The position numbers were made by a program, and so were the translations under genes. Below, piece after piece: positions 1,444-3,125 of a DNA stretch of 64,000 nucleotides. The DNA is from Telopea speciosissima (lineage: Eukaryota > Streptophyta > Magnoliopsida > Proteales > Proteaceae): the NCBI RefSeq assembly GCF_018873765.1, contig NC_057924.1:8122001-8186000 (forward strand), read 5' to 3'. Under the pieces are notes generated by a model. The model saw only the letters and a list, made by a program, of their open reading frames with translations, searched no databases and was not told the origin of the DNA. The stretch's first letter is position 1, and every line of letters starts with the position of its first letter.

Positions 1444-3125
1444 ATGGAACCATGTGCCAACAACAAGACCCCAAGAGCCACACTGATCTTGTTGTTGTTC
1501 TTCTTCCTCTATGCCCTCTCTTTCTTGGTCAGCTTCAGCAGCTGCGCCGACCCTTCGTACCTCTACGACGCTTGCTTCAATACAACCCTTTACACATCCA
1601 ACCGTAGGTACCAATCCAACCTCAACAACCTCCTCTCTTCTCTTTCCTCAAACGCCATCTCCAACCCTAACAACGCCTATTACAATGCCACCGTCGGCCA
1701 CAATGCCAATGTTGTTCACGGCCTCTACTACTGCAGAGGCGATGTCACCCACGATGTCTGCCGTGATTGTGTCAACTATGCCGCTAAAGATATCGTCCAG
1801 CGCTGCCCCAATGGGAAAATCGCAGTCATTTGGTACGACGAGTGTACATTGCGCTACTCCAATCACTCCTTCTCCTCCAATGTCTCCAAGTTCTTTGTCT
1901 ACATGTGGAATCCACAGAACATCTCTTACCCAACTCGGTTTAATCAGCTCCTGAGCAATACAATGAACGAAACCGCAACTGAAGCTGCTTCCAATTCAGA
2001 TAGATTCGCTACTCAAGAAGCTAAATTTACGCAATCTCAGAATCTCTACTTTTTGGCGCAGTGCAACCCTGTTTTATCAGGGAACGACTGTTACACATGC
2101 CTTGTGAGTGCCATTGCTCAGCTCCCAAGTTGTTGTAGCGACAAGCAAAGGGGAAGGGTTTTAAATCCAAGCTGTAACGTCAGGTTCGAGCTTTACCTTT
2201 TCTATCAAGTTACAGCTTCAGCACCGGCTCCTTCGCCTACTCTTGTTTCTCCTCCGTCTCTGACAAATCTCTCCCCGTCTTCGAGTATCAGAACGACCAT
2301 TCCTGGTGAGCAAATTAAGACATCAATTCGATATCGCTAAACAGGGGATTTATACTCTGTTTTCCATTTTTATTTTAGAACTTTGGGTCCTCAAAGGCTC
2401 GAACACTCTTGTCAGAAGAGTACCCATCTTTCTACAATGGCTCCATTAAATTTAAATAATGTTCAGAATCGTAATTCATCTTTTTTTTGTGAGAAATTGG
2501 ATTTTTCTTGAAATCGATGCCACTTCTACAAAACTTCATCTGTTGTTAGTAGAGAATGCTATCATCACCCAGTCTATTCTGAATCCAAATTCGAAATTTG
2601 TCAGGTGGCACATTTGGGAATTCTTTCTAATTTTTGGAAAGTTTTGATGCAGAAAAACAAGGAAGCTCTTCTAGAAAAATTATTACCATTGTTGTGCCAG
2701 CTGCGGTTGCAGGGGTGATTCTTATCTCAATACTCTTGTACTTTTTGCTAATCCGGAGGAAAACCGAGGACCCGCCAAAGGAAAATGGTATAAGCTTTGG
2801 CTTGGTTTTTTTTATCTACTCTAAAATACTCGAATTAATTGATTATCCAAAGTTCGGTGTCTTAGCTCCTTTAACTCGATGACATGGATGGTTCAATTTT
2901 GGAGTTGAAGTCATTGATAAACAGATTTTGAGATCTGAATGTGGCCAAAGAAGCCAATGGTTCCTAATCTTATTGGGCATCTTGCTCTTGTTGGGAAGTT
3001 TATTTATCTCTAAAAAGTCGAACTTTTAATTTATCTTCCCTGTTGACTTGTGCACAGGTGAGAACAGAATTACAAATGAGGAGTCGTTGCAATTTGATTT
3101 TAAGGAAAGCATGGTCCTTGCATGA
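1444..3125 (+). CDS. Kinase-less cysteine-rich receptor-like protein (CRK-1, PDLP-like layout)
   Basis: Predicted join of exons 1444-2305, 2653-2787 and 3058-3125, 354 aa. Exon 1 codes a signal peptide (hydrophobic run about residues 12-33) and two DUF26/Gnk2 domains, each with C-X8-C-X2-C ([26 protein letters not shown]), then a Ser/Pro-rich stem. Exon 2 codes one membrane helix (about 296-320) followed by RRK. Exon 3 keeps the normal acceptor and the first 15 residues, then runs into former 3' flanking DNA and stops after KESMVLA. The ATP-binding loop, HRD and DFG parts are absent. The ATG at 1444 matches the start of both paralogues; the upstream in-frame extension lacks an ATG. The product would be a plasma-membrane protein with an outside sensor and a tail of about 30 residues, as in PDLPs. 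Ectodomain and introns are very close to CRK-2. It could also be an expressed pseudogene; splice sites and frame are intact. Confidence 0.75.

Follow-up and report, generated by a model that had tools for sequence, protein, structure and literature searches.

This locus raises the question of whether a receptor kinase gene in a tandem DUF26 cluster of Telopea speciosissima has become a kinase-less receptor or is a gene on its way to being lost. The stretch of DNA analysed (the window) is 64,000 nucleotides long (NC_057924.1, positions 8,122,001 to 8,186,000 of the forward strand), and all coordinates given here are positions within it. Gene 1, its full-length neighbours CRK-2 and CRK-3, and the shared blocks and deletion junction discussed below all lie on the + strand. 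An earlier note on this DNA had described gene 1 as a receptor kinase recently turned into a PDLP-like receptor without a kinase. A literature search, not made by species, found no paper on gene 1.

Structure of gene 1 and its neighbours

Gene 1 (1444-3125) is modelled with three exons encoding 354 amino acids followed by TGA, and with GT/AG intron borders. Exon 1 (1444-2305) encodes a leader, DUF26-A, DUF26-B and a Ser/Pro-rich stem, and carries two PF01657 (DUF26) stretches (E = 7.2e-37). Following intron 1 (2306-2652; GTGAGC...CAG), exon 2 (2653-2787) encodes the membrane helix and the start of the cytoplasmic tail. Following intron 2 (2788-3057; GTATAA...CAG), exon 3 (3058-3125) contributes 22 residues, the first of them from a split codon: 15 are a remnant of CRK exon 3, and the last seven are encoded by a former 3' region. 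The leader (a hydrophobic 19-residue window from residue 10, likely a signal peptide) and the single membrane helix (hydrophobic 19-residue windows beginning at residues 294-306) are predicted from hydrophobicity only, and the helix is followed by a tail of approximately 33 residues.

No kinase match was found in the whole 354 residues at E 0.001 or better; by comparison, the CRK-2 protein matches PF07714 (E = 1.3e-48). A tblastn search that used the CRK-2 and CRK-3 kinase parts as queries found nothing in 3103-8593 at E values up to 10. Gene 1 has the DUF26 ectodomain and CRK-type membrane helix of a CRK and lacks the intracellular kinase domain, which bears out the proposal that all kinase exons are gone and that the frame closes 22 residues into exon 3. 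Also correct was the statement that ectodomain, stem, helix and splice sites are close to those of CRK-2: in a blastn comparison of positions 1-8000 with the whole window, 1417-3102 aligns to 8567-10240 at 85.8% identity.

CRK-2 (8594-12383; seven exons, 687 amino acids, with kinase) is the closest full-length paralog of gene 1, and CRK-3 (20390-24273; seven exons, 680 amino acids) is the outgroup paralog. The models of all three genes were derived from sequence alone, and all of their introns are GT/AG; an unusual donor, GTTCGC, is common to CRK-2 and CRK-3 after exon 4 (10697 and 22527). Together with five double-DUF26 open frames, the three genes make up the tandem DUF26 cluster of the window. 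All eight stretches (exon 1 of the three genes and the five whole frames) carry two PF01657 stretches, and 11 cysteine columns are invariant across the eight proteins, gene 1 among them. At exon 1, gene 1 and CRK-2 are 89% identical at the protein level, and the PF01657 score of gene 1 (126.5 bits) is not reduced relative to that of CRK-2 (125.6 bits). Structure prediction for exon 1 with the eight window DUF26 proteins gave a mean pLDDT of 49.8, too poor for a fold search.

The five other frames, which have no helix, start at 31758, 38595, 46764, 54419 and 58628 (31758-59368) and group apart from the three CRK-type ectodomains with moderate support (78/85). Among them lie a decayed CRK kinase exon and its following intron (34911-35034 and 35429-35670, with approximately 395 bases between), 82% and 76% identical to CRK-3 and 77% and 72% identical to CRK-2; these are the remains of a dead CRK of the cluster. 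A lone DUF26 fragment at 45126-45251 has 68% identity over 50 amino acids to the 54419 frame. The window also contains an opposite-orientation repeat (6447-7011 vs 16795-17284; 85-88% identity) that is possibly a mobile element, and an open frame at 63501-63911 that matches PF13456 (RVT_3, reverse transcriptase-like; E = 1.7e-11) and is likely part of a retroelement.

The deletion and the sequence shared with CRK-2

In the same blastn comparison, 3099-3395 aligns to 12626-12917 (86%). The CRK-2 segment 10241-12629 is absent from gene 1: one 2389 bp deletion has removed 77 bases of exon 3, exons 4-7 and 246 bases beyond the stop codon. At the junction (3099-3102), TTTA is common to both parent ends (CRK-2 10237-10240 and 12626-12629), with gene 1 reading AATTTGATTTTAAGGAAAGC and the CRK-2 ends reading AATTTGATTTTAGTACAG and GAGAAATTTAAGGAAAGC. 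The chance of at least four shared bases at a random junction is approximately 0.019, and the overlap would fit microhomology-guided end joining. The 3' region beyond it (3103-3395) is equivalent to CRK-2 12630-12917, with differences at 45 of 288 aligned bases; it provides the seven final codons and the new TGA, and contains AATAAA at 3367 (at 12861 in CRK-2).

Because CRK-3, the outgroup, retains the kinase exons in the same seven-exon arrangement (with similar 3' sequence near 24550, as judged by eye), the kinase-less state of gene 1 is derived. The best explanation is that the deletion occurred at or after the duplication that separated gene 1 from CRK-2. We are highly confident of this anatomy and origin, namely that gene 1 is a tandem CRK copy that lost its kinase through a single deletion. 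The earlier note's view that this happened independently of PDLPs is upheld, and the open frame was kept intact. Its description of the event as fresh holds in a relative sense only: the noncoding DNA of the duplicates has diverged by 7.5-16% (35/280 and 20/266 bases in the two introns), and the deletion itself is not datable.

Gene 1 and CRK-2 share an identical tract of 181 bases (1425-1605) spanning the start of exon 1; the next longest identical run is 42 bases, and a run of 181 was reached in 0 of 20000 permutations. The two genes differ at 0/175 positions in the tract and at 63/700 elsewhere (Fisher p = 3.9e-6), with a weaker contrast at 4-fold sites (0/31 in codons 1-72, 17/109 in the rest; p = 0.013). 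Constraint alone was rejected as the cause of the tract, as CRK-2 and CRK-3 differ at 39/175 positions there and at 140/700 elsewhere. The simplest reading is that the tract is a probable product of gene conversion between gene 1 and CRK-2, where 1425 and 1605 are the limits of perfect identity rather than proven conversion ends, and no direction is assigned. Gene conversion among tandem variable-group CRKs (vCRKs) has been reported (PMC6368629).

Further upstream, a block of 46 bases (1219-1264) is common to gene 1 and CRK-2 (8408-8453) at 97.8% identity. TATAAAA was found in this block by a motif scan at 1253, 191 bases ahead of the gene 1 ATG, and the block may serve as a promoter. An extra 399 bases in the CRK-2 5' flank (8009-8407), with no counterpart in gene 1 and with CACGTG at 8328, separate the block from the next upstream match.

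Gene or pseudogene

As modelled, gene 1 is a complete three-exon gene whose predicted product is a DUF26 ectodomain anchored in the membrane and followed by the short tail of some 33 residues. Were the gene expressed, this product would have no kinase, hence no signalling of its own, and would most likely dampen CRK-2 or a sister CRK: the ectodomain could pair with CRK-2 to give dead pairs, or could compete for or hold its ligand. We tentatively favour such a membrane-anchored dampener as the best explanation overall, while regarding a drifting remnant as about equally likely. The separate steps carry different weight. That gene 1 yields an expressed, functional protein appears possible rather than probable from its sequence; given a function, dampening would be somewhat more likely than not. 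We infer expression, membrane location, pairing and dampening alike. The decoy or dominant-negative role that the earlier note put forward is likewise hypothetical.

Nonsense-mediated decay is triggered by a junction downstream of the stop codon. The stop codon of gene 1 lies in its last exon, so no downstream junction would provoke decay. With respect to pairing, of 780 Arabidopsis CRK ectodomain pairs that were modelled, 145 are reported as high-confidence, mostly sharing a sheet between DUF26-B strands (PMC13058244); this pairing is modelled only, most of the 780 pairs fall below high confidence, and the paper states the limits of its method. A counter-example to action without a kinase comes from rice, where overexpression of a kinase-deleted form of NRKe, another tandem receptor kinase, is reported to give no lesion phenotype (PMC3228767).

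The competing explanation is that gene 1 is a young pseudogene, drifting while the cluster undergoes birth-and-death turnover, and that its open frame is merely left over; this has close to the same standing as the dampener. Neither the frame nor the splice sites of gene 1 are broken, as they would be in a recognizable pseudogene, and its DUF26 score is undiminished. Its exons show two gaps relative to CRK-2 in 1042 aligned bases, both of them in-frame deletions; in noncoding DNA there are 11 gap runs in 834 bases, 7 of which are not multiples of three. A codon model with three branches (gene 1, CRK-2 and CRK-3; 345 codons, gapped columns dropped) also argues against free drift. Under the free model, dN/dS is 0.44 for gene 1, 0.82 for CRK-2 and 0.63 for CRK-3. 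Under the two-ratio model it is 0.46 for gene 1 and 0.645 for the others, and a value of 1 is rejected for gene 1 (p = 0.019, or p = 0.020 without codons 1-72); between 0.25 and 0.8 the profile remains below the 5% line, which it crosses short of 0.9. Neither a raised dN/dS on the gene 1 branch (0.46 vs 0.65, two-ratio model, p = 0.36) nor faster amino-acid change in gene 1 (12 vs 7, p = 0.36) was found.

Counts of changes specific to one gene point the other way. The exons of gene 1 have accumulated changes at about the rate of its noncoding DNA (40/1035 coding vs 31/672 noncoding sites, p = 0.46), but those of CRK-2 have not (20/1035 vs 29/672, p = 0.005). The two genes differ in coding changes (40 vs 20, p = 0.013) and are equal in noncoding changes (31 vs 29), although this noncoding total masks opposite trends (gene 1/CRK-2: 8/18 in intron 1, 8/6 in intron 2, 15/5 in the flank) and the coding/noncoding ratios of the two genes are not significantly different (p = 0.14). 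Changes at all-synonymous sites lean to gene 1 as well (10 vs 3, p = 0.09), and part of its excess is therefore not amino-acid change.

A similar picture is given by ectodomain columns in which the remaining seven DUF26 proteins of the window all agree. Gene 1 has changed 5 of 67 such columns (Y to H, F to S, D to Y, D to V and G to R), compared with 0/62 for CRK-2 (p = 0.06), and the five secreted-type frames have changed 0 to 4. However, CRK-3, with a full-length frame, has altered 10/72, albeit on a longer branch; such changes alone therefore do not signify decay. The kinase relic and the lone DUF26 fragment described above are decayed pieces in the same cluster and are in keeping with a pseudogene. 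By our rough estimate, which takes 0.645 as the background and approximately 0.86 as the upper bound, about 60% of the gene 1 branch could be neutral. The dN/dS comparison with CRK-2, which had been suggested as a check, came out below 1, but the branch may include time both before and after the deletion, so that the value does not discriminate between a retained gene and a young pseudogene.

A stronger version of the functional reading is that gene 1 has been retained specifically to partner CRK-2, with gene conversion holding the two coding starts alike. The pair would then parallel SLG/SRK within the DUF26 family, and gene 1 would capture the first step toward PDLPs and secreted DUF26 proteins. 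We consider this unlikely.

There is little to recommend the idea that gene 1 yields a soluble secreted decoy by retention of intron 1, along with little or none of the membrane form. The open frame does run past the intron 1 donor in gene 1 (1444-2340), CRK-2 (8594-9691) and CRK-3 (20390-21394), giving frames of 298, 365 and 334 amino acids, but all three genes have an intact donor and acceptor, and some open read-through is expected by chance.

It is highly improbable that gene 1 has turned into a plasmodesmal protein working like a PDLP. Its parts are in PDLP order, and relocation to plasmodesmata has been reported for Arabidopsis CRK2 (PMC9893415); however, the salt-induced callose effect of Arabidopsis CRK2 is reported in the same paper to require kinase activity. 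Plasmodesmal targeting is not readable from sequence as such. In PDLPs it is ascribed to approximately 30 residues outside the membrane beside the helix, which vary in sequence between PDLPs (PMC11289629). At that position gene 1 has the CRK stem, which is shorter by two codons than in CRK-2 and gives no sign of gained targeting. When 10 ectodomains were placed in a tree, gene 1 fell together with CRK-2 and CRK-3 (100/99), apart from PDLP5 and PDLP8 (100/100); these were the only two PDLPs included, as aligned stretches of PDB chains, and the program flagged long branches. The term "PDLP-like" in the earlier note is apt for the layout of parts, the helix being judged by hydrophobicity, and does not extend to descent in this tree.

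Least credible is an assembly error that hides kinase exons present in the plant: tandem repeats can collapse in assemblies, but a chimera is unlikely because the gene 1 3' flank is no copy of that of CRK-2 (45/288 bases differ, as above), the window is without any N, and the junction overlap is only four bases, with no long identical repeat.

Comparison with known kinase-less receptors

Loss of the kinase from CRKs is already known (PMC6368629), and gene 1 is one more, well-preserved case: a clear and fairly young example of a known change. It is recent enough for the ends of the deletion to be read, and it has a full-length neighbour with which it has probably exchanged sequence later. If expressed, gene 1 would be a natural test of whether a kinase-less CRK ectodomain dampens signalling.

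PDLPs such as PDLP5 and PDLP8 (PDB 6gre and 6grf) resemble gene 1 in having two DUF26 domains, one helix, a short tail and no kinase, and they too are reported to descend from a CRK through kinase loss, and they belong to the conserved alpha group (PMC6368629), whereas gene 1 lies in a tandem CRK cluster. Its tandem setting suggests that gene 1 belongs to the variable group, the vCRKs of tandem clusters (PMC6368629). It shares exon structure, ectodomain and helix with its full-length CRK neighbours, but lacks the kinase, the defining signalling part.

Two comparisons, which are also precedents for the proposed mode of action, come from outside the DUF26 family. In Brassica, duplication of SRK is the presumed origin of SLG, and gene conversion has been invoked between SLG and the ectodomain of SRK (PMC3616866, PMC10934505), as is proposed here for the tract shared by gene 1 and CRK-2. 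SLG differs from gene 1 in having an ectodomain of another family and in being secreted. In rice, XA21D is a relative of XA21 within the same gene cluster. It has an LRR ectodomain and consists of the LRR part only, unlike gene 1. As a truncated form of the XA21 receptor kinase, it is reported to act similarly without a kinase (PMC3228767).

According to the published view, CRKs gave rise to PDLPs and to secreted double-DUF26 proteins when the kinase and/or the membrane part was lost, a process that may have taken two steps (PMC6368629). The ddCRRSPs are likewise described as kinase-less CRK products (PMC6368629), but have no membrane helix; gene 1 retains one (a hydrophobic stretch from residue 294). 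With its kinase gone and its helix present, gene 1 fits a first step on the path from a CRK to a secreted protein.
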